From: Streptosporangium brasiliense | Lineage (GTDB): Bacteria > Actinomycetota > Actinomycetes > Streptosporangiales > Streptosporangiaceae | Direction of reading: 5' to 3' | Length of the DNA: 64,000 bases | NCBI RefSeq assembly: GCF_030811595.1 | Contig: NZ_JAUSRB010000002.1 | Coordinates: 4,836,001 to 4,900,000 of the forward strand | Shown here: positions 42,190-59,032 of the stretch, piece by piece | Position numbering within the stretch: the first letter of the stretch is position 1 | Layout: every line of letters starts with the position of its first letter | Program-made: the position numbers and the translations under genes | The notes under the pieces: model-generated | The model's input: only the letters and a program-made list of their open reading frames with translations | What the model was told of the DNA's origin: nothing | The model's database searches: none

Positions 42190-42220
42190 GGGGCGCCTCC
42201 TTTCAGCTACTTGGTGTTGC

Positions 42221-42266
42221 TGACTACCAGTACAAAGTAACACTGACTACCCGTACCTAGCAACAC
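42221..42266. promoter_or_regulatory. Tandem 23-bp repeats, likely PadR operator
   Basis: TGACTACCMGTAC followed by a variable six and ACAC occurs twice, at 42221 and 42244, period 23. TGTTGCT at 42215 and AGCAACA near 42260 also form an outer dyad. On the minus strand a TTGCTA-N18-TACTTT promoter overlaps the repeats, so a bound repressor would block it. Confidence 0.55.
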
Positions 42267-42303
42267 TGAATAGGGGGTGAGAACAACGGTGTAACTCCTG
42301 ATC

Positions 42304-42879: not shown

Positions 42880-42924
42880 ACTGTGGCGGCGCGCACCGCC
42901 CCCCGACAGCGAAGGTGATCACGC

Positions 42925-43686
42925 GTGAACTTCGACACGGCCAGACCGCACCCGGCGCGCGTCTACGACTGGATGATCGGCGGCAGGGAGAACTTCCCCG
43001 CGGACCGCGAGGCCGCGCAGCGGATCCTGGAGCTCAACCCGGACGCGCGCAGGTCGTTCGTGGAGAACCGCCGCTTCCTCGGCCGGGTGATCGGCCACCT
43101 CGTGGACCAGGGGGTCCGCCAGTTCCTCGACATCGGGGCGGGCCTGCCGGCCAGCGGCAACGTCCATGAGATCGCCCACGCCGTCGCGCCCGACACCCGC
43201 GTCGTCTACGTCGACCACGACGAGATCGTGCTGGCGCACGCCCGCGCGCTCATGGCCGGCTCCGACCGGGTGCGCATCGTCGGCGGCGACGCCACGAGGC
43301 CGCGGGAGATCCTGGACGAGCCGGTGGTGCGGGACTTCATCGACTGGTCCCAGCCGGTCGGCCTGCTGATGGTGGCGCTGCTGCACTTCGTCCCCGACGA
43401 GGCCGACCCCGCGCGGATCGTGCGCACCTTCCGCGACGCCCTCCCCGACGGGAGCTTCCTGGCGATCTCCCACGGCGTGGTGGAGGGCTGGGAGGACCGC
43501 AAGGAGCAGATCCGCAAGGCGTCGCAGGCCTACGTGCGCACCCGCGACGAGGTCGCCGACCTGTTCGCCGGGTTCGAGCTGCTGGAGCCGGGCATGGTGG
43601 ATCTGGCGTTCTGGCGTCCCACCGACCCCGCCCCCGCGCCCACGGGGCTGTACGGCGGGGTCGGCAGGCTCCCTAGCGGAGTTTGA
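42925..43686 (+). CDS. SAM-dependent methyltransferase, DUF574 family
   Basis: A 253-residue member of the S-adenosyl methyltransferase family (DUF574) abundant in Streptomyces relatives. RPHPARVYDWMIGGRENFPA is the family start; FLDIGAGLPASGNVHEIA is the SAM-binding loop and VVYVDHDEIV the ribose-binding strand. The acceptor is not known for this family. GTG start with AAGG about 10 bases ahead. Its end overlaps the end of the P450 gene on the other strand by 14 bases. Confidence 0.85.
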   Translation: MNFDTARPHPARVYDWMIGGRENFPADREAAQRILELNPDARRSFVENRRFLGRVIGHLVDQGVRQFLDIGAGLPASGNVHEIAHAVAPDTRVVYVDHDEIVLAHARALMAGSDRVRIVGGDATRPREILDEPVVRDFIDWSQPVGLLMVALLHFVPDEADPARIVRTFRDALPDGSFLAISHGVVEGWEDRKEQIRKASQAYVRTRDEVADLFAGFELLEPGMVDLAFWRPTDPAPAPTGLYGGVGRLPSGV

Positions 43687-44836
43687 CCGAGGTGGGCAGC
43701 GCGCGGAAGCCGCGCAGGTTCGGTGAGTGCACGAACTCGATGCCCGTCTCGTCGACGTCGTAGCCCTCCACCGCGGCGACGAGCTCCTCCAGGACGACCC
43801 TGAGCTGGAGGCGGGCCAGGGCCGCTCCGAGGCAGAAGTGCGGGCCGGACCCGAACGCGATGGCCTGACCGGTGTCGCGGGTCAGGTCGTAGCGGTCGGC
43901 GTGCGGGAAGGCCCGGGGGTCGCGGTTGGCGGACGCGCCGAGCAGCACCATGCGGGCGCCGGCCGGGACCGTCGTGCCGTGCAGGACGGTGTCGCGGGTG
44001 AGGCGGCGGGCGACCATCTGGGCGGACCCGTCGTAGCGGAGCGTCTCCTCCACCCACGCCGCGACGGCGCCCGCCCAGGCGATCGCGCGCTGGCCGGGAT
44101 GGAGCCAGCCCTGGTACCAGGCGTTGGCCGCCAGCTTGGTCACCGACTCGTTGCCCGCGACGCCGATCAGCGACAGCACGGCGGCGATCTCGTCGTCGCC
44201 GAGCCGGTCCCCGTCGATCTCGGCCAGGACGAGCGCGCTGACGAGGTCCTCGCGCGGCCGGGCCCGCCGTTCGGCGATCAGCTCCTTGTAGAAGGCGGTC
44301 AGGGCGGTGGCGGCGTCCCAGAACGTCTGCGGTATCCCGGTGTCCCCGTCGTAGCGGGTGATGATGATCTCGGACAGGCGCAGCATCTCCGCCCGGTCCT
44401 CCCGCGGGACGCCGAGCAGCTCGGAGATGACGTACACCGGGACCGCCGAGACCACCCCGGCGAAGTCGAACCTGCCCGCCTCCAGCGCCGGGGCCAGGAG
44501 CTCGCGGGTGAGCGCCCGTACGGCGGGCTCCAGGCCGGCCACCCGGGCGGGGGTGAAGCCCCGGGAGACGAGGGCCCGCATCCGGGTGTGGCGGGGCGGG
44601 TCCATCGCCAGGAACCCCACCAGCTCGGACGCGCCGGCGTCCCACATCTCCAGGGTGACGCCGTGCGCGCTGGAGAACAGGGCCGGGTCCCGGAAGGCCG
44701 CGTTGACGTCGGCGTGCCGTGACAGCGCCCAGAAGTCCAGCTCGGCGTTGTGGTACAGCGGCGCCTCCTCACGGAGCCGCGCGTAGGTGGGGTAGGGGTT
44801 CTCTTGCAGCGCGTGGTCGAACGGGTTGTAGAGCAA
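43673..44836 (-). CDS. Cytochrome P450
   Basis: A 387-residue P450 of the CYP105/CYP107-like bacterial type. I-helix AGNES (227-231) stands in for AGxDT, so Asn takes the place of the usual spacer and Glu-Ser that of the acid-alcohol pair; E264-T-L-R267 is the K-helix; the haem ligand is C335 in FGSGPHFCLG. Start TTG at 44836 is supported by GAGGG 5 bases upstream. No redox partner is nearby. It lies next to the lanthipeptide locus but outside its operon, and nothing ties it to that pathway. Confidence 0.9.
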   Translation of the reverse strand: MLYNPFDHALQENPYPTYARLREEAPLYHNAELDFWALSRHADVNAAFRDPALFSSAHGVTLEMWDAGASELVGFLAMDPPRHTRMRALVSRGFTPARVAGLEPAVRALTRELLAPALEAGRFDFAGVVSAVPVYVISELLGVPREDRAEMLRLSEIIITRYDGDTGIPQTFWDAATALTAFYKELIAERRARPREDLVSALVLAEIDGDRLGDDEIAAVLSLIGVAGNESVTKLAANAWYQGWLHPGQRAIAWAGAVAAWVEETLRYDGSAQMVARRLTRDTVLHGTTVPAGARMVLLGASANRDPRAFPHADRYDLTRDTGQAIAFGSGPHFCLGAALARLQLRVVLEELVAAVEGYDVDETGIEFVHSPNLRGFRALPTSVKLR

Positions 44837-45096
44837 CAGGCCCTCATTCCGGCGCGGCGGACACGACCTTCATCATCAGCGGACCGGACGATAAGGGCAA
44901 TACGGTCATGACTGCCTGTCGTTCCGGTCCGAGGGGCGGGGGTGTGCGGCGGGCCGCCTCCGGGAAGGTCATGATTTCCCACCCGGAATCGATGATCCGG
45001 TGCTTAACTCGGCTATCCAGGGTAGTCGGCTGACTGCCTGGGGTAGCAGTCATGCTCCGGGAGACACCACTGGGTCACCGAAAAGGGGAAAAACCG

Positions 45097-45753
45097 GTGA
45101 TAAGCGTCCTGATCGCCGAGGACATGCATCTCATCCGTGGAGCGATGGTCGCCCTGCTCTCCGCCGAGCACGACATCAAAGTGGTCGACGACGTCGGGCA
45201 CGGCGACGACGTGGTGCCCTCCTGCCTGGTCCACAGGCCCGACATCGCGCTCGTCGACATCGGCCTGCCCGGCACCGACGGCCTGGCCGCCACGGCGGAG
45301 CTGAACCGCAGGCTCCCCTCGTGCAAGGCGGTGATCCTGACCGGGCTGGCGACGCCGGCCGCGCTGCGCCGGGCGCTGGACGCCGGGGCGCGCGGGTTCG
45401 TCGTCAAGGACACCCCGGCCGGGCAGCTCGCCGAGTGCGTGCGCCGGGTGGCCGCCGGCGAGCGGGTCATCGACCCCGACCTCGCCGTCGCCGCGCTCAA
45501 CGCCAGGCAGAACCCGCTCACCACCCGGGAACTGGAGGTCCTCAAGGCCGCGGCCGAGGGGGCGCCGGTCAGCGAGATCGCCGACCGGCTCTTCCTGTCC
45601 GGCGGCACGGTCCGCAACTACCTGTCGCGGATCCTGTCCAAGATCGGTGCCCGGACGCGGGTGGAGGCGGTCACCATGGCCCGGGAGGCCGGCTGGCTGT
45701 GGCCGGACGACGTGCGGGAGATCGGGCTGATCCGCTACCGGGACGTCAACTGA
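45097..45753 (+). CDS. LuxR/NarL-type response regulator of the lanthipeptide locus (RamR-like)
   Basis: A 218-residue regulator. The receiver domain has E8-D9, phospho-acceptor D54 in LVDIGLPG and the lysine in VVKD; the C-terminal HTH reads LTTRELEVLKAAAEGAPVSE, IADRLFLSGGTVRNYLSRIL. In SapB loci the matching gene is ramR, an activator. Here it sits at the far end of the gene set and faces it, with a palindrome between. A DesK-type kinase at the other end may be its partner. The GTG at 45097 is chosen for AAGGGG 7 bases before it. Confidence 0.88.
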   Translation: MISVLIAEDMHLIRGAMVALLSAEHDIKVVDDVGHGDDVVPSCLVHRPDIALVDIGLPGTDGLAATAELNRRLPSCKAVILTGLATPAALRRALDAGARGFVVKDTPAGQLAECVRRVAAGERVIDPDLAVAALNARQNPLTTRELEVLKAAAEGAPVSEIADRLFLSGGTVRNYLSRILSKIGARTRVEAVTMAREAGWLWPDDVREIGLIRYRDVN

Positions 45754-45759
45754 GGCCGG

Positions 45760-45779
45760 CCGCCGGCGCGCGCCGGCGG
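45760..45779. terminator. 20-bp perfect palindrome between convergent genes
   Basis: CCGCCGGCGC followed by its exact complement, starting 7 bases after the regulator stop and ending 8 bases before the peptidase stop. A likely two-way terminator. Confidence 0.6.
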
Positions 45780-45786
45780 AGACCGG

Positions 45787-47787
45787 CTAGCGGGGCCGTT
45801 CGAGGCCGGTGTGCGCGGCGAGGAAGGCGAGCATGTCGCCCGCCAGTCCGACCGACCGGCTGACCGCCCGGGGCCCGTGCCCGACGCCGCTCTCGTGGCG
45901 CAGCAGGATCGGCCGGGAGCCCGAGGCCGCCCCCTGCAGCGCCGCGCACATCTTGCGGGCGTGGCAGGGGTCCACTCGGGAGTCGCCGTCGAAGGCGGTC
46001 AGCAGCGTTGCCGGGTAGTCCACCCCGTCCCTGACCCGGTGATAGGGGGAGTAGCCCAGCAGCCAGCCGAGCTGCTCGGGGTCGGCGGCCGTGCCGTACT
46101 CCGAGCGCCAGGAGGGGCCGAGCCCGGAGCGCTCGTAGCGGACCATGTCGAGCAGCGGGGCCGAGCAGACCGCCGCGGCGAACAGGTCCGGCCGCTGCGT
46201 CAGGGCGGCTCCGACCAGCAGCCCGCCGTTCGACTCGCCGCAGATGCCCAGCCGGTCGGCGCTGGTCCAGCCGTCGGCGATGAGCCGTTCGGCCGCCGCC
46301 ACGAAGTCGTCGAAGACGTTCTGCTTGCGGTCGAGCATTCCGTCGCGGTGCCACTGCGCGCCCTGCTCGCCGCCGCCGCGCAGCTGGGCGAAGGCGAAGA
46401 CCCCGCCGGCCTCGACCCAGGGCAGGACGTAGCTGGAGTAGGAGGGGGTGAGCGAGAGGCCGAACCCGCCGTAGCCGTACAGGATCGTCGGGCGGGGGCC
46501 GGTCCCGGGCCGGGCCAGCACGACCATCCGCACCGGTGTGCCGTCCGCCGAGGTGTAGACGAGCCGGCGGGCCGACAGCTCCGGCACCTCGACCGTGCCG
46601 GGCGCGGCGGCCCAGAGCGAGCTGCGGCCGGTGCGCGCGTCGTAGCGGTGCACGCTCCCGGGGGTGACGCTGTCGGTGTAGGTGAACCAGACCTCGTGGC
46701 CGCCCTCGGGCCGGGTGGACATCCGCCCGGCCGTCCCGAGGCCGGGCAGCGGCACCTGGCCAAGCGGCTCGCCGGTCGCCAGGTCGTGGACGCTGATCTC
46801 ACTGATCGCGTGCCGGGTCCAGCCGACCAGGAGCACCGAGCCGTCGAGGACCGCGAAGTCGCCGATCACCGCCTCCGGATCCGGGCCGACCAGCTCGCGC
46901 CAGTGCTCGGGTCCGGGACGCGCCGGGTCGGCGACGCACAGGCGGCCCCGGGGCGCGCCCAGGGTGGTGAGGAGGTACAGGCGCCCGTCGCGGCCGACGG
47001 CGGGCGCCGTCACCGCGCCCGTCCCCTCCTGGACCACCCGCAGTTCGGGGCGGTCGGGAGGGGCGGCGGACAGGTCGGCCAGCCACAGGTCGTTGCCGCC
47101 GCCGTCGGCCGCCGCCGCCACCGTCAGCCAGCGGCCGTCGTGGCTGATCCCCAGGCCGTAGGAGCGGTCGGCGGGGCAGATCACCACGTCGTCGCCGACC
47201 GGGGTGCCGAGCCGGTGCAGGAAGACCTGGCGAGAGCGGACGTAGAAGAACGCCTTCCCGCCCGGCAGCCAGGCCACCGGCGCGTAGCGGCAGCGGTCGA
47301 TGGGACCGTCGACGACCTGCCGGGTGCCGACGTCCATGACGTACAGCTCCGACCGCTCGTCGCCGCTCCTGGACAGCTGGTAGGCCAGCAGCCGGCCGTC
47401 GAGGTCGGGCTGCCAGTGGTCGAGCGTGGTCAGGCCGCTGGGGTCGAGCTCCGCCGGGTCGACCAGCGCCTGTTCGGCCTGTCCCGGCCCGGCGGTGTAG
47501 AGCACCGCGTGCTCCTGCCGGGCCGTACGGCGCAGCAGGAAGCGGCGCTGCCCGCGCCAGACCGGCGGGCTGACCGTCCCGGCGCCGGAGAGCTCGGCCA
47601 CCCGGGCGTGCCACGCGTCGCGCCCGGCGAGCGTGGCGGCGTGGTCGCGCCACAGCCCGTCCTGGGCGGCCAGCCAGTCCCGGGTCGCGGCGCTCGCCGG
47701 ATCCTCCAGCCACCGGTAGGGGTCGGGTACGGCGTGACCGTGGAGGTGGTCGACGATCGGCTGCCGCCCGGCGGGTGGGTAGATCAT
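45787..47787 (-). CDS. Prolyl oligopeptidase, family S9 (candidate leader peptidase)
   Basis: A 666-residue S9A enzyme. Residues 1-70 and 410-666 make the alpha/beta-hydrolase domain; in between is a seven-bladed propeller that limits substrates to short peptides. The triad is visible: Ser in GICGESNGG, Asp in AFDGDSRVDP and His in ESGVGHG. YGYGGFGLSLTPSYS is typical of the family. Prolyl oligopeptidases such as FlaP and AplP trim class III lanthipeptide leaders, and an Ala-Pro at leader positions 11-12 of all three precursors is a plausible site. No signal peptide, so cytosolic. Its start overlaps the ABC gene stop (ATGA). Confidence 0.9.
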   Translation of the reverse strand: MIYPPAGRQPIVDHLHGHAVPDPYRWLEDPASAATRDWLAAQDGLWRDHAATLAGRDAWHARVAELSGAGTVSPPVWRGQRRFLLRRTARQEHAVLYTAGPGQAEQALVDPAELDPSGLTTLDHWQPDLDGRLLAYQLSRSGDERSELYVMDVGTRQVVDGPIDRCRYAPVAWLPGGKAFFYVRSRQVFLHRLGTPVGDDVVICPADRSYGLGISHDGRWLTVAAAADGGGNDLWLADLSAAPPDRPELRVVQEGTGAVTAPAVGRDGRLYLLTTLGAPRGRLCVADPARPGPEHWRELVGPDPEAVIGDFAVLDGSVLLVGWTRHAISEISVHDLATGEPLGQVPLPGLGTAGRMSTRPEGGHEVWFTYTDSVTPGSVHRYDARTGRSSLWAAAPGTVEVPELSARRLVYTSADGTPVRMVVLARPGTGPRPTILYGYGGFGLSLTPSYSSYVLPWVEAGGVFAFAQLRGGGEQGAQWHRDGMLDRKQNVFDDFVAAAERLIADGWTSADRLGICGESNGGLLVGAALTQRPDLFAAAVCSAPLLDMVRYERSGLGPSWRSEYGTAADPEQLGWLLGYSPYHRVRDGVDYPATLLTAFDGDSRVDPCHARKMCAALQGAASGSRPILLRHESGVGHGPRAVSRSVGLAGDMLAFLAAHTGLERPR

Positions 47788-49628
47788 GGCACCAGCTCCT
47801 GGGTGTCCGAGGGGTTCCAGTGGCCGACCAGGTCGGCGTAGAGCGGCGAGGTGGCGAGCATCTCCTCGTGCCCTCCCAGCCGGACGCTCGTGCCGTCCAT
47901 GACGAGGATCCGCCGGGCGCGCCGCGCGGAGGTCAGCCGGTGGGCGATGACGAGGAGGGTGCCCCCGCGGCGGGCGAACGCCTCCTCCGCGCGGGCCTCG
48001 GCCGCCGGGTCCAGATGGCAGGTCGCCTCGTCGAGGATGACCAGGCGGGCCGGGGTCAGGTAGGCCCGGGCCAGGGCCACCAGCTGGCGCTCGGCCGGCG
48101 ACAGCAGACCGGAGTGGATCTCGGCGTGGTGGCCGCCCAGCCGGGCCACCAGGGCGGTCAGGCCGACCGCCGCCACGGCGTCGTCGACGGCCTGCCGCGG
48201 CGCCTGCGTCAGGTAGGTCAGGTTCTCCAGGAGCGTGCCCCGGAAGACGTAGGCCTCCTGGGGGATGAGCACCCGCTGGGCCGGGTCGAGCCGGTCGGCC
48301 GGGACGCCGCCGACGGTGACCTGCCCCGCGTCCGGCCGGAGCACGCCGGTGACGAGCGCGGCGAGGGTGGACTTGCCGATGCCGCTGGGCCCCACCACGG
48401 CGATGTGGTCCCCCTCGGGGACGGACAGGTCGAGATCGGAGATGACCGGTTCGGCGTGCGGGCCGTAGGCGAACCTCACGCCGCTCAGCCGCACCTCCAC
48501 GTCCCGGGCCGCGCTCCGCGCGGTCGCCGGGCGGGCGGGCGCGCCGGAGCGGAGGATGCGGTCGAGCGACACGCGCAGCCGGACCCCGCTGATGCCCAGG
48601 CCCTCCACGAGGTTGCCGAGCGCCGGCGCCAGTGACTGCGTGACGTAGGCCAGGGCGCCGAGGATCACCCCGGCCCCGGCCCCCTGGCCCAGCAGCCAGG
48701 GGGTGCCGGCCAGCACGAGCAGGACCGGCAGCCGGCCGCCCACCGCCAGCGACAGCGTCCGCACGGCGGTGACCCTGGCGAGCGAGCGCCCGGCGGCGGC
48801 CTGCTCCGCCACCTGCCGGCCGACCCCGGCGGCCACCCGGTCGTCCGCCACGCAGGCGGCGACGTCGCGCAGCCCGCCGGTCACGGCGGTGACCGCCTCG
48901 GCGGTGCGCTCGTCGGCCAGCAGGAACGCCCGCTGCCGCCGGGCCATGGCCGGCAGCGAGAGCAGGAAGAGGCCCAGGCCGGCGACGAAGGGCGGCAGGA
49001 CCAGCACGAGCACCTGGGGGATCAACGTCATCAGGCCGAGCACGACGCCGGCCACGGTGAAGACGAAGGACCTGACGACGGTGATGACCGAGGCCAGGGC
49101 GTCGCGGGCCAGCTCGACCTGCAGGTTCGACCGGGCCACCGCCGCGGTGTCCGCCCCGTGCCCGGCTGCCGCCGACCGCTCCAGCGTGCTCTCGACGACG
49201 TGGCCGAGCAGCTCCTCCCGGAACGGCTCCACGATGGCGGCGACGGCCAGCACGACCTGCCGCGCGCCCGCCGCGGCCAGCAGCCAGGCGCCGGCGAGGA
49301 CGGCCAGCCAGGCGGCCCCGGTGCCGGGCCGGCCGGCGGCGAACCCCTCGTCGACGGCCCGCGCGATGGCGAGGCCGATGACGAGGGCGGGCGCGGTCTC
49401 CGCGACCGACCAGAGGCCGAGCCTGACAAGCAGGCGGGGGTCCCGCCGGAGCGCCCGGCGGATCGGGCGGTCGACCGGGCCGGCCTGGGCGGGGGCGCGG
49501 TGGCCGCCGCCCGTGGGGCCGGTCGCGGGGCGGGCGCGGTGGCTGCCGCCCGCAGGACCGGTCGCGGGGCGGGCGCGGTGGCCGTCGGCGGGGGCCGTCC
49601 GGGGCGGGGGGCGGTGGCCGCGGCTCAC
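47784..49628 (-). CDS. ABC half-transporter, second of the lanthipeptide pair (RamB-like)
   Basis: A 614-residue half-transporter: a membrane domain with about six helices (residues 70-330) and a C-terminal ATPase. Walker A GPSGIGKST, signature LSPAERQLV instead of LSGGQ, and Walker B LVILDEATCHLD. The first 55 residues are an unusual His-Arg-Pro-Gly repeat (units like GHRARPATGPxGG, DNA period 48 bp) ahead of the first helix. The start GTG at 49628 overlaps the stop of the partner gene (GTGA). With that partner it presumably exports the modified peptide, as RamAB do. Confidence 0.88.
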   Translation of the reverse strand: MSRGHRPPPRTAPADGHRARPATGPAGGSHRARPATGPTGGGHRAPAQAGPVDRPIRRALRRDPRLLVRLGLWSVAETAPALVIGLAIARAVDEGFAAGRPGTGAAWLAVLAGAWLLAAAGARQVVLAVAAIVEPFREELLGHVVESTLERSAAAGHGADTAAVARSNLQVELARDALASVITVVRSFVFTVAGVVLGLMTLIPQVLVLVLPPFVAGLGLFLLSLPAMARRQRAFLLADERTAEAVTAVTGGLRDVAACVADDRVAAGVGRQVAEQAAAGRSLARVTAVRTLSLAVGGRLPVLLVLAGTPWLLGQGAGAGVILGALAYVTQSLAPALGNLVEGLGISGVRLRVSLDRILRSGAPARPATARSAARDVEVRLSGVRFAYGPHAEPVISDLDLSVPEGDHIAVVGPSGIGKSTLAALVTGVLRPDAGQVTVGGVPADRLDPAQRVLIPQEAYVFRGTLLENLTYLTQAPRQAVDDAVAAVGLTALVARLGGHHAEIHSGLLSPAERQLVALARAYLTPARLVILDEATCHLDPAAEARAEEAFARRGGTLLVIAHRLTSARRARRILVMDGTSVRLGGHEEMLATSPLYADLVGHWNPSDTQELVP

Positions 49629-51310
49629 GGGGCGTCCGCCTGGAAGACGGCCCGGTATCCGGGGTCGTCCCACAGCGCCCGGTGCGTGTCGTAGGCGCGC
49701 ACCCGGCCGCCGTCCAGCCAGATCACCCGGTCGGCGGCCGCCGCGGTCGCCACCCGGTGGGTCACGATCAGGCGGGTACGGCCGCGCAGCTCGCCGGCGA
49801 GCGCCCTGCCGACCTGCCGTTCGGTGACGGTGTCCAGGCTGGAGGTGGCGTCGTCCAGGACGAGCAGGCGCTCCCCCTGCGCGAAGGCGCGGGCCAGGCC
49901 GATCCGCTGCCGCTCCCCGCCGGACATCGGAGCCTCCCGCAGCGGGGTGTCGTATCCCAGCGGGAGCCGCCGGACGAAGGCGTCGGCGCGCGCCGCGCGG
50001 GCGGCCGCGCGCACGGTCTCCGGGGCGGGGCCGTCGAGGCCGAGGCCGATGGCGTCGGCGACGGTCTCCCCGACCAGGACGGGGCGTTCGAAGGCGTGCC
50101 CGACGGCCCGGCGCAGCGCCTCACGGGAGAGGTCGGGCAGTGGCACGCCGTCGAGGCGGACGGTCCCGCGGAGGGGGTCCACCAGGCGTCCGGCGAGGGC
50201 GGCCAGCAGCGACTTGCCGGCGCCCGACCGGCCGACCACGGCCACCGCGCATCCGCCGGGGACGACGAGGTGGACGTCGCGGAGGCCGTCGGCGGCGACG
50301 CCGCGCAGCTCCAGCGTGCCGGGACCGGCGGGCAGCGGCCGCCCGCCGTACGTCCGGGGTCCCTCGGCGATCAGCTCGACCACCCGGCCGGCGGCCGCGC
50401 GCGCCCGGGCCAGGCGGTTGACGTAGCCGAGCGCGGCGCCGAGGCCGGCTCCCAGCACGGCGTAACGGGCGGCGGAGTAGAGCTCACCGGCCGTGAGGTC
50501 ACCGGCCGCCAGGCGCAGGCCGCCCACTCCCAGCACGGCCACCTCCAGCAGCGGCACCACCGCGCCCGCCTGGACGCCGGCCCGGGCGTTGGCCCGCCAC
50601 ATGTCCATGGCGTGCGCGCGCAGCCGGGGGAGCGCGGTCAGCACCCGTGACTTCTCCTGCGCGGCGGTGCCGGCCGCGGCGATCGTCCGGGCCCCGGCGA
50701 GGGCGTCGACCAGGCGGGCGGCGATGTCGCCCTGGGCCCGCTGGTAGTCGCCGGCGATCGAGGTGGTCGTGCGGAAGAACGCCCGGAGCACGAGCGCGAT
50801 GAGGACGAGGGCGGTGACCAGGGTCAGGGTCAGCCAGAAGTCGATGAGGGAGAGCGCCACGACGCCGCCCGCGGTGGGGATGACCAGTGCCGCCCCGGTG
50901 ACGATCGCCTCCGGCGCGCGCCCGGCCTCCTCGGCGTTCACGCCTGTCCGGGTGACCAGGTCGCCCTCGGGGAACCGGCGGGTCATCGCGGGGCCGGCCC
51001 CGAGGACGTGCCGCACGATCCGGTGCCGGAGCCAGGCCGAGACCTGGGCGCCGCTCGCCCCGGCGCCCCAGACACCGAGGGTGTCGCAGAGCACCGCCAC
51101 GGCCACGACCGTGGCGCAGGCGCCCAGCCAGAGTCCGCTCGCGGGCTCGGCCGCGACCAGGCTGTCGACCGTCCTGCCCAGGAGAGCGGGCAGCGCCAGC
51201 TCCGCGAGCGCGCCGAAGACGGAGGTGAGGGCGAGGACGCCCAGCCAGGGGCCGCCCCGCCGGACGGTCTGGGCCACCAGCCGATCCGCCAGCCGATCTG
51301 CCGTCCGCAC
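49625..51310 (-). CDS. ABC half-transporter, first of the lanthipeptide pair (RamA-like)
   Basis: A 561-residue half-transporter with six predicted membrane helices (residues about 25-300) and an ATPase domain: Walker A GRSGAGKSLL, signature MSGGERQRIGLARAF, Walker B LLVLDDATSSLD and the H-switch in VTHRVAT. The GTG at 51310 has GAAGGAGG about 9 bases upstream and is preferred over a GTG at 51385 that touches the last codon of the nearest precursor gene. It follows the precursor genes on the same strand and is coupled to the second half-transporter. Confidence 0.9.
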   Translation of the reverse strand: MRTADRLADRLVAQTVRRGGPWLGVLALTSVFGALAELALPALLGRTVDSLVAAEPASGLWLGACATVVAVAVLCDTLGVWGAGASGAQVSAWLRHRIVRHVLGAGPAMTRRFPEGDLVTRTGVNAEEAGRAPEAIVTGAALVIPTAGGVVALSLIDFWLTLTLVTALVLIALVLRAFFRTTTSIAGDYQRAQGDIAARLVDALAGARTIAAAGTAAQEKSRVLTALPRLRAHAMDMWRANARAGVQAGAVVPLLEVAVLGVGGLRLAAGDLTAGELYSAARYAVLGAGLGAALGYVNRLARARAAAGRVVELIAEGPRTYGGRPLPAGPGTLELRGVAADGLRDVHLVVPGGCAVAVVGRSGAGKSLLAALAGRLVDPLRGTVRLDGVPLPDLSREALRRAVGHAFERPVLVGETVADAIGLGLDGPAPETVRAAARAARADAFVRRLPLGYDTPLREAPMSGGERQRIGLARAFAQGERLLVLDDATSSLDTVTERQVGRALAGELRGRTRLIVTHRVATAAAADRVIWLDGGRVRAYDTHRALWDDPGYRAVFQADAP

Positions 51311-51384
51311 CGGTCGGTCCTCCTTCGGGAAAGGGCGATGCCCGGGACGGCTGCCGTCGCCGGCCGTCCCGGGCACCTGACTCA

Positions 51385-51516
51385 CTAGTGGCAGAGCAGG
51401 AGGCTGAGGTTGCTCGGCTTGGCCGACTCGCAGCCGAGCACCGTCAGGGTGCTGCCGCCGCCGCCGCCGTGGCCGCCGCCGGGGGCTTCCATGGTCTGGA
51501 GGTCGAGAAGGATCAT
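51385..51516 (-). CDS. lanA1: Class III lanthipeptide precursor 1
   Basis: A 43-residue precursor. Leader MILLDLQTMEAP carries the LLDLQ motif recognised by class III synthetases; a GGGHGGGGG spacer follows. The core STLTVLGC plus SNLSLLLC gives two Ser/Thr-x2-Ser/Thr-x3-Cys motifs, the pattern that becomes labionin or lanthionine plus dehydroresidue, as in SapB. Ribosome site GAGG 7 bases before the ATG. It differs from precursor 2 by one silent base (51430). Confidence 0.92.
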   Translation of the reverse strand: MILLDLQTMEAPGGGHGGGGGSTLTVLGCESAKPSNLSLLLCH

Positions 51517-51555
51517 GGGATTACCTCGCTTCTTGGTGATGGGAACCGGGGACGA

Positions 51556-51687
51556 CTAGTGGCAGAGCAGGAGGCTGAGGTTGCTCGGCTTGGCCGACTC
51601 ACAGCCGAGCACCGTCAGGGTGCTGCCGCCGCCGCCGCCGTGGCCGCCGCCGGGGGCTTCCATGGTCTGGAGGTCGAGAAGGATCAT
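51556..51687 (-). CDS. lanA2: Class III lanthipeptide precursor 2
   Basis: Encodes the same 43 residues as precursor 1 and is preceded by the same 39-base spacer and ribosome site. The near-perfect identity indicates a recent tandem duplication or gene conversion. It lies between the two other precursor genes. Confidence 0.92.
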   Translation of the reverse strand: MILLDLQTMEAPGGGHGGGGGSTLTVLGCESAKPSNLSLLLCH

Positions 51688-51726
51688 GGGATTACCTCGC
51701 TTCTTGGTGATGGGAACCGGGGACGA

Positions 51727-51858
51727 CTAGTGGCAGAGCAGGAGGCTGAGGTTGCTCGGCTTGGCCGACTCACAGCCGAGGACGGTGAGCGTGCTGCCGC
51801 CGCCGCCGTGGCCGCCCCCGGTAGGGGCTTCCAGGCTCTGGAGGTCGAGAAGTACCAT
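51727..51858 (-). CDS. lanA3: Class III lanthipeptide precursor 3
   Basis: A 43-residue precursor, MVLLDLQSLEAPT then GGGHGGGG and the same core (STLTVLGC, SNLSLLLC, final His) as the other two. It differs only in the leader and spacer (I2V, T8S, M9L and the P/T/G junction), so all three should mature to the same product. It follows the synthetase by 4 bases, with a GGAGGTG ribosome site overlapping the synthetase stop; the others sit on the spacer repeats. Confidence 0.92.
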   Translation of the reverse strand: MVLLDLQSLEAPTGGGHGGGGSTLTVLGCESAKPSNLSLLLCH

Positions 51859-51862
51859 GTGG

Positions 51863-54502
51863 TTACACCTCCTTCGGTGACTCGTCGTCGGAGCGGAGCC
51901 GCTCGGCGGATCCACGCACAGGCAGTGCCCCTGTCAAGGCGCCTGTGCCGCCGGGCGGCCCGGTAAAGGGGAGGGACACCGGCTGCCCGTGCAGCGCGGC
52001 GCCCATCGCGAACAGGACTCCGGCCGTGCCGGTCGCGAAGTCCATCGAGAGCCTGAGCAGTTGGTCGCCGGGGAAGGCCAGCCCGCCGCCATAGGGCAGC
52101 GCGTGCCAGCTCAGTCCGCGGATCTGCTCGGCCAGGTCGGTGTCGGAGCCGTGCGATGCCGGTCCCAGGCCCGTGGCGAGGGCCGCGACCATGCCGCTCC
52201 GGCCGGTGAACAGCCCCGGCTGGACGAAGTAGCGGCCCCGGGTGACGAGCCGGCAGCCGTCGAGCGCGGCGCGGAAGTCGTCGTCGTCACGGTGGGCCAG
52301 ATATCGGGCGAGGACCAGGCCGATGCCCACGGAGCCCTCGTCCAGGTAGGGGAGGGTGCGCCAGCCCTGGTTGACCTGAAGCGTGCCGTCCTCGCCGGAG
52401 GTGCAGCGCCGCAGGTCCTGGCGGAGCGCCACGGCCGCCCGGTCGAGCAGCGACGTGTCGCCGGTCCGCTCGTAGGCGTGCAGGAACAGCAGGGCGGGGC
52501 CGGAGGAGCCGTACATCAGCCCCGCGCGGGGGCTGCTCCCGCCGCTGGTCTCCGGCACGTCGTCGGGACCGCCGAGCCGGTCGGCGCAGACGTCGACGGT
52601 CCGCAGCGCCAGGTCGGTGAGGGCCGGCTCCCCGGCGGCCGCGCCCAGGTGGAGCAGGTTCAGGCCGGCCCCGGCGAGCCCGCCGAACAGGCCGAGCTCC
52701 AGCGACTCCCACTTCTCCCGCAGGCACAGCTCGACCGTGTCGAGCGCGTCCTGGCGGTGCCCGAGCAGGTCCAGGACGTGGGCCACGCCGTGCAGGCCGT
52801 CGTAGAAGCCGATGCCCGTCCCCCGGCCGGGGGCCAGGGCCCTGCCGCGCAGCCAGTCCTCGTGCTCGGGGAAGCGGCCCGCCCCGGTCGCCGCCAGCGC
52901 GTAGAGCACGCCCGCCGCGCCGTAGGCGAGGCTGATGCCTCCGCCGGGCTGGAACTGGGCCACGTCGCCGGGGAAGAGCCGGTCCTCGCGCTCGGGGGTG
53001 GCGCTGGCCAGGATGGCCCGGCACATCGCGGCCCTGACCTGGGGCCAGCCGTCCCGGCCCGGTGCGGGGATCGGCCGGGCCGTCACCGGAGCGGTCCCCA
53101 TGATGGTCCGGACGGCCTCCTCGATCACCGCGGGCGCCACGGGGAAGGTCTCCGTGATGAGCCCGGCGAGCTGGACCACCTTGGCCCGGTCGAGCGGCAG
53201 CATGATCGTGAGCTGGGGGGCGAACAGTCCGAGGCAGAGGCAGGCCAGGGCGTAGACGTCGACCTCGACGCCCTGCCGGTCGGCCGGCGCGCCGAAGGCG
53301 GGGTGGGCGAGGGCGGCCCGGTCGCGGTCCGCGGCGAGGGTCGCGACCTCGTAGTCGATCAGGACCAGCCGCCCCTGCTCGGTGATGAGGATGTTGTTGG
53401 GGTGCAGGTCGCCGAAGACCACCCCCCGCCCGTGCAGGGACTCGACCGCCCGCCGGACCTTGGGGAGCACCTCCAGCACCCAGGAGGTGTATCCGGCGAC
53501 GGCCTCCTGGTCGCAGTCGGCCCGGGTCAGCGGGTATCGCTGCACGAGGAGCCGCTGCAGCGGGTTGCCGTCGACGAACTCCTGGACCAGGAAGTGGTGC
53601 TCGCCGAGCGTGAAGTAGTCGAGCAGCGCCGGTACCGCCTCCAGCCCCGACAGGCGCTCCAGCATGTCCCGCTCGTGCGCCAGCCGCGCCACGGCGTCGC
53701 GGTCGGCGGCGTCGAGCCCGGCGTACGGGCGGGCCTCCTTCAGCACCACCCTCTCGCCGCTGCGCAGGTCCCGGCCGAGATACACGCCCCCGCCGTTGGA
53801 GAACTGCATGACGCTCTCGATCGTGTACGGCAGGCCGTTGGTCGTGACAGCGTTGCGGGCCGCCAGGTGGGGCTCCAGGAACTCCGGCAGCGTCACCCAG
53901 GACGGCAGGCTGAAGGCGGGCTCCCGCACGTCGGGGACCAGCCGTCCCTCGCCGTCCTCGACGGCCAGCACCAGCTCGCCGTTGCCGCCCAGGCAGCGCC
54001 GGGGCGTGAAGCCGCCGTAGCGCACGTAGAGGGGGCCCTCGGCGTAGCGGAGATCGCTGAGGATGTAGGGGCCTCTCACTCCGTGGAGCAGTCCGTTGAG
54101 CTCCTTCAGCGTGAGTTCGAGCTGGCCCTCGTCCAGGGGGTAGATCGTCACGAGCTTGCCGCTGGAGCCGCGGGCGGCCGCCTTGGAGTTCAGCATGGTC
54201 ATGACCGGCCGGTTGCGCAGGAACTTGAACGCGATGTCGCGCGGCACGCAGTAGTCCCAGACGGCCTCCAGGGCGCGCTCGGCGTCCTCCAGGCACGCCG
54301 ACACGTGGATCTTCCAGCCCTGGGCCGGCCTCCGCGTGGCCAGGGGCGCGTAGTGCATCCAGGTGTCGGTCGCCTGGTGCTCCCAGCCCTCGGGGACCTG
54401 CCGGGCCACGAGCGGGAAGTCGGGGTGGTCGCCCCGGCGGCCGTCAAGGGTGTCGTAAAAGAGCCGGTCCGCGAGGCAATAAAGCTCATACTGGTCATTC
54501 AC
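51863..54502 (-). CDS. lanKC: Class III lanthipeptide synthetase LanKC (RamC-like)
   Basis: An 879-residue tri-domain enzyme. Residues 1-225 are the phosphoserine/threonine lyase part (DIAFKFLRNRPVMTMLNSKA is typical); about 225-520 are a Ser/Thr kinase-like domain with YLGRDLRSGERVVLKEARPY, catalytic GDLHPNNILI and IDYEVAT; the rest is a LanC-like cyclase (GIGFYDGLHGVAHVLDLL, GLMYGSSGPALL, LDEGSVGIGLVLA) without the usual Cys-Cys-His zinc set, as expected for class III. It phosphorylates, eliminates and cyclises precursor Ser/Thr/Cys residues. GTG start with GGGAG 7 bases before. Confidence 0.95.
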   Translation of the reverse strand: MNDQYELYCLADRLFYDTLDGRRGDHPDFPLVARQVPEGWEHQATDTWMHYAPLATRRPAQGWKIHVSACLEDAERALEAVWDYCVPRDIAFKFLRNRPVMTMLNSKAAARGSSGKLVTIYPLDEGQLELTLKELNGLLHGVRGPYILSDLRYAEGPLYVRYGGFTPRRCLGGNGELVLAVEDGEGRLVPDVREPAFSLPSWVTLPEFLEPHLAARNAVTTNGLPYTIESVMQFSNGGGVYLGRDLRSGERVVLKEARPYAGLDAADRDAVARLAHERDMLERLSGLEAVPALLDYFTLGEHHFLVQEFVDGNPLQRLLVQRYPLTRADCDQEAVAGYTSWVLEVLPKVRRAVESLHGRGVVFGDLHPNNILITEQGRLVLIDYEVATLAADRDRAALAHPAFGAPADRQGVEVDVYALACLCLGLFAPQLTIMLPLDRAKVVQLAGLITETFPVAPAVIEEAVRTIMGTAPVTARPIPAPGRDGWPQVRAAMCRAILASATPEREDRLFPGDVAQFQPGGGISLAYGAAGVLYALAATGAGRFPEHEDWLRGRALAPGRGTGIGFYDGLHGVAHVLDLLGHRQDALDTVELCLREKWESLELGLFGGLAGAGLNLLHLGAAAGEPALTDLALRTVDVCADRLGGPDDVPETSGGSSPRAGLMYGSSGPALLFLHAYERTGDTSLLDRAAVALRQDLRRCTSGEDGTLQVNQGWRTLPYLDEGSVGIGLVLARYLAHRDDDDFRAALDGCRLVTRGRYFVQPGLFTGRSGMVAALATGLGPASHGSDTDLAEQIRGLSWHALPYGGGLAFPGDQLLRLSMDFATGTAGVLFAMGAALHGQPVSLPFTGPPGGTGALTGALPVRGSAERLRSDDESPKEV

Positions 54503-54649
54503 GGCAATCTCCCTGCTGTCTTCCAGAAGAGAGAATTACGGATAACCCGAGAAATCACCAGTTACAAACTCAACTACTCATACGTGCGAACTTCACAGCC
54601 TTAATCATGAAGATGTGCGCCACCTGGGCTTACGCATTAAAAGTGAAAC
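54503..54649 (-). promoter_or_regulatory. A/T-rich leader region of the lanthipeptide operon
   Basis: About 150 bases, clearly richer in A and T than the surroundings, separate the kinase gene from lanKC. The operon promoter and any binding site for the response regulator should be here; I could not fix boxes or an inverted repeat with confidence. Confidence 0.4.
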
Positions 54650-55354
54650 TTATTCGGAAAAATTCCGGGGAACTTCGGCGACCAGGTTGAACCAGCCGCC
54701 CTCGCCGGCGCTCACGCGCACCGTGCCCCCAAGCCGGGCCAGGCGGTCGCGCAGATTCCCCAGGCCGTCGCCGGCGGGCGGCCGGGGGCTCCGCCCGGGG
54801 ACGCCGTCGTTGGCGACGGTCAGGCGGAGCAGGCCGTCGTGCTCGGCCAGCTCGATCACGCATGTCCTGACCGTGCTGTGCCGGAGCATGTTGGTGACGC
54901 CCTCGCGGACCACGGTCCCCAGCGCGGCGCTCACCTCCCGGGGCAGCGCGGTGGCGTCCACCCGGACCGAGCAGTCGGCGCCGAAGCTCGCGAGAAGGGC
55001 CTGGGCCCGCATGCTCTCGCCCTGGAGGGACAGGTGGCGGTGGGCCTTGGAGACGTTGCGCACGGCGTGCGCGGCGTGCCGTACGGCCTGGAGCGCCTCG
55101 CCCAGCTCCCCACGCAGGCGTGCGTCGCCGGCCGCCCGCCGGTAGGCCAGCTCGCTTTTGATCGAGGCCAGCCAGAGCCAGTGGCCCACCAGGTCGTGCA
55201 TGTCCCGGGCGAACTCCTCGTGCGCCCGCGTGACGGCCCTCTCCTGCTCGGCGCGGAGCCGTCTGATCCGCAGCGCCAGGACGACCGTGACGCCCAGTGA
55301 TATCAGGACGGTTCCGGCTATGACGGCTACGGCGACGTATAGCTGGGGTGGCAT
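54650..55354 (-). CDS. DesK/NarX-type sensor histidine kinase
   Basis: A 234-residue kinase with little sensor: one membrane helix (residues 5-28), then the HisKA_3 phospho-acceptor H53 in FARDMHDLVGHW, and an ATPase domain with TVVREGVTNMLRHST and GDGLGNLRDRLARLGG. The lack of an external domain suggests it senses the membrane or works with another protein. It is first on the strand of the lanthipeptide operon. NarL-type kinases pair with LuxR-type regulators, and the only one in the window is at 45097. ATG at 55354 is used; an ATG at 55393 is also possible. Confidence 0.85.
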   Translation of the reverse strand: MPPQLYVAVAVIAGTVLISLGVTVVLALRIRRLRAEQERAVTRAHEEFARDMHDLVGHWLWLASIKSELAYRRAAGDARLRGELGEALQAVRHAAHAVRNVSKAHRHLSLQGESMRAQALLASFGADCSVRVDATALPREVSAALGTVVREGVTNMLRHSTVRTCVIELAEHDGLLRLTVANDGVPGRSPRPPAGDGLGNLRDRLARLGGTVRVSAGEGGWFNLVAEVPRNFSE

Positions 55355-55549
55355 CGACCGGCTCTCACTGGAAGGGACGGCATACCTGGACATAAACTCA
55401 AGAAATTGTTTAACTGTCAATAAAGAAGAACAATACTCTGGTCGCAGAGGTGATCGGAAGAATGGCGACAGTCCTAATCCATAACAGGCTGTCATAACCC
55501 CATATGACCGGGCGGGAGACCCGGCGTGGCCGAGGCCCGTCGGTTGAGC

Positions 55550-56263
55550 TCAGTGGAGGGCGAGCGGCAGCGGGACCAGCAGGTAGGTGCCGCCGAACAG
55601 GGCCGCCGCGGCCACCAGCAGGAACAGCAGCACCCAGAACCCGCCGGGCAGGAAGGTCAGCCGGGCGAGCTGGTCGGCGTCGGAGTCGGGGGCGCGGCCG
55701 CGCCGCCGCTTGCGCTGCAGCTCCACGATCGGCCGGACGCCGCCGAACAGCAGGAACCAGACGGCCAGGTAGGCGAGGACGGCGTCGACGTTGGGCGGCG
55801 CGTACCAGGTGAAGGCGGCTATCGCCCCGCCGGTGGCCAGCAGGCTCACCACGCCGAACAGGTTGCGGATCAGCAGCAGCATGCAGCAGAGCAGCGCGAT
55901 CACGATCGTGATCAGGATCGCGACGTAACCCGAGGCGGTCAGCCACGCCCCGCCGAGCCCCAGCAGGGACGGGGCGACGTATCCGGCGGCGGCGGTCAGG
56001 ATCATCCCCGGGCCGGTGGGCCTGCCCCGGGTCAGCGTGACGCCCGAGGTGTCGGAGTGCAGCCGGATGCCCTGCAGCTTGCGCCGGGTGAGCAGCGCCG
56101 TCAGCGCGTGCCCGCCCTCGTGCGCGATCGTGATCAGGCCCCGGGAGAGCTGCCACGAGGCGGACCACGTCACCGCGGCCAGCGCGGCCAGCGCGGCCAG
56201 CAGCACGATCCACAGGGGAGGCCCCGCCTGGGGCGTGGTCAGAGTCACCCAGACCTCGGACAA
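55550..56263 (-). CDS. M50-family membrane metallopeptidase
   Basis: A 237-residue integral membrane protein of the M50B-like family. The zinc motif H-E-x-x-H appears as AHEGGHAL near residue 48, flanked by membrane helices; six or so helices follow, with an Arg/Lys-rich loop (QRKRRRGRAPDSDADQ). Such proteins may cut within the membrane; no partner anti-sigma factor is nearby. The start is TTG at 56263, chosen because AAGGAGAA lies 8 bases upstream and no ATG or GTG fits. Divergent from the amidohydrolase operon. Confidence 0.75.
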   Translation of the reverse strand: MSEVWVTLTTPQAGPPLWIVLLAALAALAAVTWSASWQLSRGLITIAHEGGHALTALLTRRKLQGIRLHSDTSGVTLTRGRPTGPGMILTAAAGYVAPSLLGLGGAWLTASGYVAILITIVIALLCCMLLLIRNLFGVVSLLATGGAIAAFTWYAPPNVDAVLAYLAVWFLLFGGVRPIVELQRKRRRGRAPDSDADQLARLTFLPGGFWVLLFLLVAAAALFGGTYLLVPLPLALH

Positions 56264-56337
56264 CGATCACTTCTCCTTAACGGCGTCGGGACAAGAGCGT
56301 CCCATGACATCCGGTGTGTCGGCGATAAAGTCGGGAC

Positions 56338-57267
56338 GTGCAGAACATGATTCCGGAACCCGCCGACGCCGACGTCCCCGCCTGGTGGCGGAGACTGGGC
56401 CTGCCCGGTCTGGTGGACGTGCATGTCCACTTCCTGCCCGAGCGCATGGAGCGCCGGGTCTGGCACCACTTCGACCACGGTGGCCCGCTGATGGGGGAGG
56501 GGTGGCCGATCCGCTACCGGCTGCCCGCCGAGGAACGGGTCGCCCGGCTGCGGGAGCTCGGGGTACGGGTCTTCCCCGCCCTGGCCTACGCGCACCGGCC
56601 CGGCATGGCGGCCGACCTCAACGCCTGGACCCTCGACTTCGCACGGCGTACCCCCGGATGTCTCCCCTCGGCCACCTTCTACCCCGAACCTGGAGTCCTT
56701 GGCTACGTGCGGGACGCGCTCGACCGGGGGGCGCGCGTCTTCAAGGTCCATCTGCAGGTGGGGGACTTCGACCCCAGGCTCAAGGAGATCGACGAGGTGT
56801 GGGGGCTGCTGGCCGACCGGGGCGTCCCGGTCGTGGTCCACGCCAGCTCGATCCCGCTCCCGGGCCGCTGCACCGGCCCGGTGCCGATCGCCGGGGTGCT
56901 GGCCCGCCACCCCCGCCTGGCGGTGGTCATCGCCCACCTCGGCATGCCGGAATACGACGAGTTCTTCCAACTGGCCGAGGCGTACCCGGATGTGCGGCTC
57001 GACACCACGATGACCTTCACCGACTTCGCCGAGCGCGGCACGCCCTTCCCCGACCGCCTCAGGCCGCGCCTGCGCGAGCTGGGCCTGGCCGGCAAGGTCC
57101 TGCTCGGCAGCGACTTCCCGACCATCCCCCACCCCTACGCCCACCAGCTCCACGCGCTGGAGCGCCTGGACCTCGGCGACGACTGGCTGCGGGCGGTGTG
57201 CTGGGACAACGCCGCCCACCTGCTCGGTCTCACCCCCGATTACACTCGGTCAACGGGAAATCGATGA
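56338..57267 (+). CDS. Amidohydrolase-family metal-dependent hydrolase
   Basis: A 309-residue TIM-barrel enzyme of the amidohydrolase 2 group. Metal and catalytic residues are in order: HVH in LVDVHVHFLPE (about 28-30), K-x-H in VFKVHLQVGDF, H in VVVHASS, H in IAHLGMPEYD and D in LGSDFPTIPHPY. Members hydrolyse or decarboxylate cyclic or aromatic acids; the substrate is open. A GTG at 56338 or an ATG at 56347 can start it. Followed at 13 and 10 bases by a SnoaL protein and corA, so likely one operon. Confidence 0.82.
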   Translation: MQNMIPEPADADVPAWWRRLGLPGLVDVHVHFLPERMERRVWHHFDHGGPLMGEGWPIRYRLPAEERVARLRELGVRVFPALAYAHRPGMAADLNAWTLDFARRTPGCLPSATFYPEPGVLGYVRDALDRGARVFKVHLQVGDFDPRLKEIDEVWGLLADRGVPVVVHASSIPLPGRCTGPVPIAGVLARHPRLAVVIAHLGMPEYDEFFQLAEAYPDVRLDTTMTFTDFAERGTPFPDRLRPRLRELGLAGKVLLGSDFPTIPHPYAHQLHALERLDLGDDWLRAVCWDNAAHLLGLTPDYTRSTGNR

Positions 57268-57280
57268 TCGGGAGACCCGA

Positions 57281-57757
57281 GTGAACGACCAGAACGCAGC
57301 GCTCATCAGGACCTTCTACGGTGCCTTCGGACGTCGCGACACCGACGCGATGGAGCGCTGCTACCACCCCGACGCCACCTTCGGCGACCCCGTCTTCCAG
57401 GACCTGGAAGGACGCGACAGGGTCATGGGCATGTGGCGGATGCTGCTCGGGCGCAACCGCGACGTCGGCGTGACCGTCGGCGACGTCAGCGCGCGCGACC
57501 ACGACGGCGCGGCGCACTGGACGGCCCGTTACACCTTCGGCACGACGGGCAGGGAGGTCGTCAACGAGATCGACGCCCTGTTCCGGTTCGAGGACGGTCT
57601 GATCGTCCGGCACCATGACGCCTTCGACTTCAAGCACTGGTCCAAAATGGCCCTGGGCAGGCCGGTCGGTCTCTTCCTCGGCTGGACCCCGATGTTCCGG
57701 GCGACGATCCGGGGTAGGGCGTTGCGGTCGCTGGAGGAGTTCATGGCGGCCGGATGA
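57281..57757 (+). CDS. SnoaL-like/NTF2-fold protein
   Basis: A 158-residue NTF2-fold protein: ALIRTFYGAFGRRDTDAMER, CYHPDATFGDPVF and VVNEIDALFRFEDGLIVRHH are the standard SnoaL_2 pattern of a cone-shaped pocket. Some members are cyclases or isomerases, many have no known role. GTG start with GGGAG 7 bases before. Middle gene of the amidohydrolase-corA set. Confidence 0.8.
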   Translation: MNDQNAALIRTFYGAFGRRDTDAMERCYHPDATFGDPVFQDLEGRDRVMGMWRMLLGRNRDVGVTVGDVSARDHDGAAHWTARYTFGTTGREVVNEIDALFRFEDGLIVRHHDAFDFKHWSKMALGRPVGLFLGWTPMFRATIRGRALRSLEEFMAAG

Positions 57758-57767
57758 GGAGACGGAT

Positions 57768-58910: not shown

Positions 58911-58992
58911 AGCCCGCACGCCGTGCGCCGGAGCGCCGGGAGCTCTCGGCGGGCCGGGAGGTCCCGGGCAGGTGACCACTCCCGCGCGGGGA

Positions 58993-59032
58993 CGTGCAGG
59001 AGCGCCGGGGCAGGGCTCGGCGCTCCTGCACG
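58993..59032. terminator. Hairpin terminator between corA and a convergent gene
   Basis: A perfect 14-bp stem (arm starts CGTGCAGGAGCGCC) with a 12-base loop, 6 bases from the end of the downstream convergent gene. Likely works in both directions. Confidence 0.75.

Follow-up and report, generated by a model that had tools for sequence, protein, structure and literature searches.

A predicted SapB/AmfS-family class III lanthipeptide operon of Streptosporangium with a short-loop prolyl oligopeptidase and its own histidine kinase

Flavipeptin, the product of FlaKC, FlaA and FlaP of Kribbella flavida, is the closest known system to the locus described here; both are class III lanthipeptide loci with a prolyl oligopeptidase (POP) in the operon and a leader proline about 10–12 residues before the core. 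FlaP is reported to cleave after leader Pro(−12), and efficiently only on the ringed precursor (PMC10885120). FlaP-like POPs correlate with FlaA-like precursors in further genera (PMC8960859). POP-family genes are also described in class III clusters of Brevibacterium (PMC5719810) and in the Streptococcus family III 3 (PMC7268733), which resemble the present locus in this respect but are set apart, going by their descriptions, by precursors of other kinds. In Brevibacterium the leader is mostly without a proline: POP-like genes are reported in six of seven class III clusters and a leader proline in one of six precursors, so that POP and leader proline do not always go together (PMC5719810). 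SapB of Streptomyces is encoded by ramC-ramS-ramA-ramB together with ramR, which a 2013 survey found only in streptomycetes (PMC4255298). The trigger of SapB-type morphogens is hard to study partly because RamR is an orphan regulator (PMC9739842) with an atypical receiver that dimerizes without phosphorylation (PMC12632262). Durhapeptin of Streptomyces durhamensis, which has morphogenetic activity, shares with the present locus an LLDLQ leader, two SxxSxxxC motifs and a ram-like layout, but the available text on its five-gene cluster names neither a POP nor a kinase (PMC13380574).

In this study, we analysed a window of 64 000 nucleotides from Streptosporangium brasiliense (NZ_JAUSRB010000002.1, positions 4,836,001 to 4,900,000). 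A first-pass annotation had placed here a SapB-type class III locus with the order kinase, LanKC, three LanA, two ABC half-transporters and POP, faced by a LuxR-type regulator, and every one of these genes is present where it was placed. The operon runs on the minus strand from 55354 to 45787 and the NarL-type regulator faces it on the plus strand:

45097..45753, plus strand: NarL-type response regulator (PF00072, PF00196), convergent with the minus-strand genes; full set of receiver residues, E-D, D, T and K (EDDTK)
45787..47787, minus strand: prolyl oligopeptidase (POP, S9A; PF02897, PF00326), likely leader peptidase; triad S519/D602/H637; AlphaFold2 model with pLDDT 86.6
47784..49673, minus strand: ABC half-transporter 2 (PF00005)
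49625..51310, minus strand: ABC half-transporter 1 (PF00664, PF00005)
51385..51516, minus strand: LanA3 precursor (PF19402 RamS), MILLDLQTMEAPGGGHGGGGG followed by the core; protein identical to LanA2
51556..51687, minus strand: LanA2 precursor (NF033212, PF19402)
51727..51858, minus strand: LanA1 precursor (NF033212, PF19402), MVLLDLQSLEAPTGGGHGGGG followed by the core as in LanA2 and LanA3
51863..54502, minus strand: LanKC, class III lanthionine synthetase (lyase-kinase-cyclase); NF038151 at 1092 bits, alignment to solved LanKC structures
54503..54649, minus strand: intergenic stretch before lanKC that an alignment of 17 loci shows to be strongly conserved in the genus; likely holds the promoter and 5′ leader
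54650..55354, minus strand: histidine kinase (PF07730 HisKA_3) with one TM-like segment; H, N and G box residues present (HNDGG)

The regulator likely starts with GTG at 45097, a position shared by eight of 12 aligned regulator genes (the window counted), and the likely kinase start at 55354 corresponds to Met48 in the longest ORF of that gene. ABC half-transporter 1 likely starts at the GTG at 51310, which has AAGGAGG ahead of it; its longest ORF begins at 51385. LanA1 follows the LanKC stop after four bases, and the start of the POP gene shares four bases with the stop of ABC half-transporter 2, a tight spacing that makes a single transcript likely. A consensus scan of 51300–51960 gave no promoter-like or terminator-like site, and no Rfam family was found in 42000–60000. 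A partial Mutator-type transposase gene (profile positions 6–130 of 379) lies near the locus at 42304–42918.

Judged from its gene families, the locus is a class III lanthipeptide operon of the SapB/AmfS family from Streptosporangium, as the first-pass annotation had largely proposed. LanKC far exceeds the NF038151 cut-off of 575 bits in the profile search and contains the RamC_N lyase (PF25816), PF00069 and PF05147 domains. Loss of its catalytic residues had been named as grounds for doubting the locus; in an alignment to 8sao (positions counted by hand; residue roles and ThurKC numbering from PMC10604976) the lyase lysines K108 and K117, the catalytic Asp of the kinase and the DF/YE residues are all kept, and the cyclase residue D771 is a Thr. 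All 16 Streptosporangium genomes searched, the host included, hold a LanKC above the class III cut-off, and the locus is therefore not a chance occurrence; the enzymes of Streptosporangium canum and S. minutum are 88% identical to that of the window. No second LanKC above the cut-off was found in the host genome, where three more LanKC/LanL-like synthetase ORFs (G000:C2:2844003, C1:1927456 and C2:3756309) all score under it. In three of the 16 Streptosporangium genomes (L110, L111 and L119) there is a second LanKC, from a different clade and close to a P450-like match.

The three precursors are 43 residues long and share one identical core, STLTVLGCESAKPSNLSLLLCH; copies 2 and 3 do not differ at the protein level. 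Against the SapB/AmfS family NF033212 (cut-off 25) the two different precursor sequences reach 57.4 and 59.8 bits, and all three precursors score 54.2–55.0 bits against PF19402 RamS (cut-off 24.3). Both S/T-x2-S/T-x3-C motifs, from which two rings per core had been predicted, are present. Each leader carries a proline at residue 12, which is −10 when counted back from S22 and so lies close to the Pro(−12) of FlaP (PMC10885120). The array is a 171 bp tandem repeat of 2.8 copies with 94% matches, and a genome search at E 0.01 found no further SapB-family precursor in the host.

For comparison we assembled 94 loci, comprising the window, the best 80 of 112 named loci and 13 wider Streptosporangium stretches; L120, a duplicate of the window, was excluded from all counts. 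Precursors were sought from 200 bases before to 1800 bases after the end of LanKC, a span in which none was found in L102, L103, L106, L110, L111 and L119. Cores were sorted into types by patterns that we wrote ourselves, so that residues within a pattern are invariant by construction; a spurious ORF in L086 and the NLQ-type leaders of L101 and L104 stand outside the sort. In this set, with its best 80 of 112 named loci, type 1 accounts for 79 precursors in 51 loci, type 2 for 31 precursors in 17 loci of Microbispora, Sphaerisporangium and Planotetraspora, and type 3 for eight precursors in eight Actinomadura loci; 14 precursors in 11 loci, all without a POP there, were left unsorted, most of them from Actinomadura and near type 3. 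In the LanKC tree type 1 forms one side of a branch (support 95), with type 2 adjoining (89).

The tandem precursors had been described as foreign to the classic SapB locus. One precursor was indeed found at the SapB-family locus of S. scabiei (L161), and the tandem copies are no oddity of the strain, since related loci hold one to four. Among the 51 type-1 loci (the same set, best 80 of 112 named loci included), 34 have one copy, seven have two, nine have three and one has four; the 17 type-2 loci have one (five loci), two (ten) or three (two), and loci that end at contig ends may hide copies. The contigs of S. canum and S. minutum (L027 and L028) stop in or just past the LanA array, a pattern to be expected where tandem copies that are nearly identical interrupt an assembly. 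Cores are mostly alike within a locus, unlike the diverse precursors of Nocardiopsis L101. The likeness of copy-1 and copy-2 cores averages 0.928 within a locus (n = 15) versus 0.827 for same-position cores across loci (n = 210), while leaders show no such excess (0.887 within versus 0.891 between loci). The core of copy 1 is nearer to copy 1 of another species in six of the 15 loci, and concerted evolution of the cores therefore appears as a tendency only. Since the copies carry identical cores, we read the array as probably serving dosage rather than diversity.

The POP had been put forward as a leader-peptidase candidate that is not part of the classic locus. An S9A POP with its catalytic triad does stand in the operon; a POP in a class III operon is in itself not new, FlaP being the precedent (PMC10885120). 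In the 94-locus set (best 80 of 112 named loci included) a POP gene is present in all 47 type-1 loci with at least 6.5 kb after LanKC, across four families, and every precursor found in a POP locus is of type 1. The remaining four type-1 loci end at contig ends, and two such genomes (G004 and G007) carry an 88% identical POP on another contig. In the same set no in-locus POP was found in the 17 type-2 loci or in ten Actinomadura loci of full length, five more being cut off by a contig end. The catalytic Ser, Asp and His are kept in 47 of 47 in-locus POPs, and inspection by eye revealed no signal peptide in that of the window. The 22 genomes without an in-locus POP have a best POP 61–66% identical to the window POP, and the chromosomal POP of the host is 64% identical to its cluster copy. 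In a tree of the 47 in-locus POPs and 22 others (20 fetched, with L127 and L128), the in-locus POPs form one side of a branch with an SH-aLRT value of 99, apart from the chromosomal POPs. Their gene lies after the transporters in Streptosporangiaceae and before them in Kribbella, Nocardioides and Pseudonocardiaceae; a single POP clade despite two gene orders fits a single recruitment on the type-1 stem.

The window POP clades with those of 12 Kribbella class III loci and may be an orthologue of FlaP, FlaA and FlaP being compared here by their published descriptions. These Kribbella loci resemble the window in core type, LanKC clade and POP clade, but each has a single precursor, a POP before the transporters, no detectable kinase and a degenerate receiver. 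The locus of S. scabiei has the LanKC-LanA-ABC-ABC order, the convergent LuxR-type regulator and the precursor family in common with the window; unlike the window, it yielded neither a POP nor a kinase by tblastn. Beyond flavipeptin, the features that sequence comparison points to are a POP clade with a short loop A, the pairing of kinase and receiver, and tandem copies with identical cores.

Pro12 is present in 79 of 79 type-1, 31 of 31 type-2 and none of eight type-3 precursors (94-locus set, best 80 of 112 named loci included). The type-2 sister clade keeps Pro12 with no POP in the locus, so that Pro12 does not need the cluster POP; by this distribution, the leader proline is older than the in-locus POP. 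A chromosomal POP may serve these type-2 loci (L037, L038, L042 and 14 others). The spacer that follows Pro12 is Gly-rich, with His as its main other residue: His makes up 49 of the 85 residues other than Gly in 43 different Gly-rich spacers, 35 of which contain it, compared with four of 51 such residues in 13 Gly-rich stretches from other ORFs (Fisher p = 2e-9, uncorrected for kinship). All 108 His codons counted are CAC, two changes away from GGC. The first His after Pro12 stands at position 4 in 29 of 60 type-1 Gly-rich spacers and at position 3 in 22 of 31 type-2 spacers; Nonomuraea spacers are neither Gly-rich nor His-bearing. A role of the Gly/His spacer in metal binding or protease recognition is possible. 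An ATCUN-like metal-binding tail left after POP cleavage was considered and rejected, as the copies in the window do not match an exact XXH motif.

Ordinary POPs have a limit on substrate size. Porcine and human PREP and the bacterial prolyl endopeptidases 3iuj and 2bkl share fold and triad with the window POP, which differs from them in missing loop A (189–209). Measured between two conserved propeller anchors, loop A has 16 (30 POPs), 17 (16) or 18 (one) residues in the 47 in-locus POPs; in the 22 others it has 30 residues in 17 and 32, 29, 24, 23 and 20 in the rest. The shortened segment corresponds to PREP 190–209, as located through L142 aligned with the porcine enzyme, and thus to gating loop A of PREP (189–209), the nicking of which raises activity and the tethering of which abolishes it (PMC5446394). 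In the AlphaFold2 model (mean pLDDT 86.6, about 95 at this site) two strands are joined there by a two-residue turn, and the closest structure to the model is 3iuj in its open state (TM 0.89). We extended the comparison to the best 120 of 7767 database relatives together with the 69 POPs of our own set. A wider clade of 153 members, 106 of them database POPs beyond the in-locus set, surrounds the in-locus POPs; its loops have 16–24 residues in 152 members and 31 in one. Outside this clade the loop has 30 residues in 31 of 36 POPs and is short (20) in one, again among these best 120 of 7767. By these lengths the shortening appears graded across the wider clade. The loss of loop A may let the ringed 43-mer enter the enzyme. 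No discussion of the gating loop for a FlaP-type lanthipeptide POP was found in the literature covered, most subscription papers being outside that coverage.

The first-pass annotation had described the gene order, with its kinase and a facing LuxR-type regulator, as an extension of the ram plan. The kinase does extend that plan, being present here and not found at the ram-type locus of S. scabiei, and it is a histidine kinase (HisKA_3) rather than a Ser/Thr kinase; the regulator is also present but belongs to the classic plan, being convergent in S. scabiei as well. Orthologues were defined by an identity line of our own (kinase at least 64%, regulator at least 76%; nothing else rises above 42% and 59%, respectively), and by this line both are present in 14 and neither in seven of 21 genomes. 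The regulator (76–100%) occurs in 14 of 16 Streptosporangium genomes and the kinase (64–100%) in the same 14; in G002, G012 and G013 the regulator lies away from the operon. G008 and G009 hold neither orthologue (best regulator 54–55%, best kinase 36–38%), nor do five Sphaerisporangium genomes (regulator 51–56%, kinase at most 40% or none).

Receiver residues were read from tblastn alignments of downstream convergent regulators in the 94-locus set (best 80 of 112 named loci included; L120 excluded). Where kinase and regulator are both readable (39 loci) the receiver pentad is complete in 38, L032 having an N, and where a regulator stands without a kinase (26 loci) it is complete in two strictly (L029 and L074) and in five if E/S is allowed; these counts cover about five lineages rather than 65 independent cases, and the locus count overstates independence. 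In the other 29 loci the kinase, the regulator or both are absent or cut off. L083, L097 and L100 have an EEDSK receiver and no kinase. The regulator of L029 and L074 is intact but unlike the others, with no kinase found, and groups in the regulator tree with that of L101 and two streptomycete regulators, apart from the other cluster regulators; two ORFs neighbouring the replaced regulator of L029 were tested and neither is a kinase. Kribbella and Nocardioides receivers read H-R/H/G-D-I/R-T/N, those of Actinomadura mostly E-G-D-A/S-K, and that of the RamR-position protein of S. scabiei H-D-D-A-K, while the distant Nocardiopsis locus L101 has a kinase and a complete receiver. In the kinases the H and N residues are present in every row and the G box varies outside Streptosporangium. 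The grouping of kinase-paired regulators as one clade is weakly supported (51/77). By their phosphorylatable His and Asp residues and their shared presence, kinase and regulator qualify as a predicted two-component system which, as judged from the complete EDDTK receiver and the kinase in the operon, is not a RamR-type orphan. No kinase-regulator pairing for a class III lanthipeptide is apparent by title among the literature matches listed.

About 65 bases within the stretch before lanKC (54503–54649) are closely alike in 16 of the 17 aligned loci, and the conserved bases also occur in the two species whose regulator is replaced and in which a kinase was not found. A TGTG-N3-TTCGCAC repeat in front of lanKC is conserved in the genus. 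We do not claim it as a regulon box, since the window has one further match, with two mismatches (two in all, 0.74 expected).

We consider it probable that the locus is a SapB-family, flavipeptin-like operon in which one LanKC rings three identical cores, the loop-A-less POP cuts after Pro12, the ABC pair exports the product, and the kinase and intact regulator switch the operon on. This reading builds on what the sequences themselves hold, namely the genes, the identity of the cores, the conserved Pro12, the POP clade with its short loop, and the co-presence and co-absence of kinase and regulator. The kinase would read a signal and phosphorylate the NarL-type regulator, and this regulator, acting at the conserved stretch ahead of lanKC, would likely switch the operon on. 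The LLDLQ leader helix presumably docks on LanKC, which would install two rings, core S1-T4-C8 and S14-S17-C21, as (methyl)labionin or lanthionine. Cleavage by POP after Pro12 would follow in the cytoplasm once the rings are in place, as reported for FlaP, and the Gly/His-rich tail left by this cut might be trimmed by an aminopeptidase. The two half-transporters would export the product, near-identical precursor copies would raise its dosage, and the exported amphiphilic peptide may help aerial growth, a surfactant function that is plausible by analogy. The working mode would thus join flavipeptin maturation to a kinase-driven ram circuit.

It is rather unlikely that the product is instead an antibacterial or signalling lanthipeptide, with the kinase as a LiaS-like envelope sensor of the peptide or its damage. 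LiaS and MadS are among the weak NCBIfam relatives of the kinase, but far under the family cut-offs, and the single TM-like segment with almost no extracellular part would suit such a sensor (three Nonomuraea kinases and that of Nocardiopsis have three to five segments). The precursors nevertheless score in the SapB/AmfS and RamS families, and a LanKC in every genus genome searched suggests a developmental gene more than a variable weapon. That the in-operon POP is a bystander, with the leader removed either by an M1 metalloprotease like AplP or by a POP encoded elsewhere on the chromosome, is unlikely in our view. All 29 genomes searched hold POP-family genes outside the cluster, the type-2 loci do with Pro12 and no POP of their own, and several class III leaders, that of flavipeptin included, are reported substrates of AplP (PMC12328550); against this stand the retention of the gene in every full-length type-1 locus, in a clade of its own with a short loop A, and its overlap with the preceding transporter gene. 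Lower still we place the chance that the kinase serves another regulator and that the facing one works without phosphorylation, as reported for RamR. Kinase and regulator do lie at opposite ends of the operon, and in other genera the regulator at the RamR position has a degenerate receiver, but each of 21 genomes has either both genes or neither, even where the regulator has moved, and nearly every kinase locus has a complete pentad. HisKA_3 kinases, moreover, usually pair with NarL regulators.

If kinase and regulator work together as preferred here, SapB-type morphogen loci could be divided into two control states: a kinase-driven one in the window and its Streptosporangiaceae kin, where a dedicated kinase would phosphorylate an intact RamR-position receiver, and a kinase-less one with a decayed receiver in Streptomyces (RamR), Kribbella and Actinomadura. 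The POP, for its part, would have shed its gating loop to admit the bulky ringed 43-mer, as a checkpoint freeing only finished peptide. We hold the arguments for and against this wider proposal to be evenly balanced. In this family, which is not that of the streptomycetes, the regulator position is occupied by another protein, one paired with a kinase. With a kinase of its own and a complete receiver in this sister system, the input signal becomes open to direct testing, and kinase-driven and kinase-less control can be compared in a natural setting. The short loop A suggests, in concrete structural terms, how a POP of the FlaP type could process a ringed precursor although ordinary POPs are gated, and a short-loop POP could be useful for leader removal in peptide engineering.

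Two minor observations concern the surroundings and kinship of the loci. An M50B-like membrane peptidase gene (55550–56263) lies upstream of the kinase on the same strand; a relative precedes LanKC in the main loci of Streptosporangium and Planomonospora, with L033 as the exception, and none was found in the loci of other genera. L033, from a strain named Streptosporangium sp. KLBMP 9127, falls with Nonomuraea in all three trees (POP, LanKC and regulator), and its spacer is of the Nonomuraea type; its genus label may be wrong.
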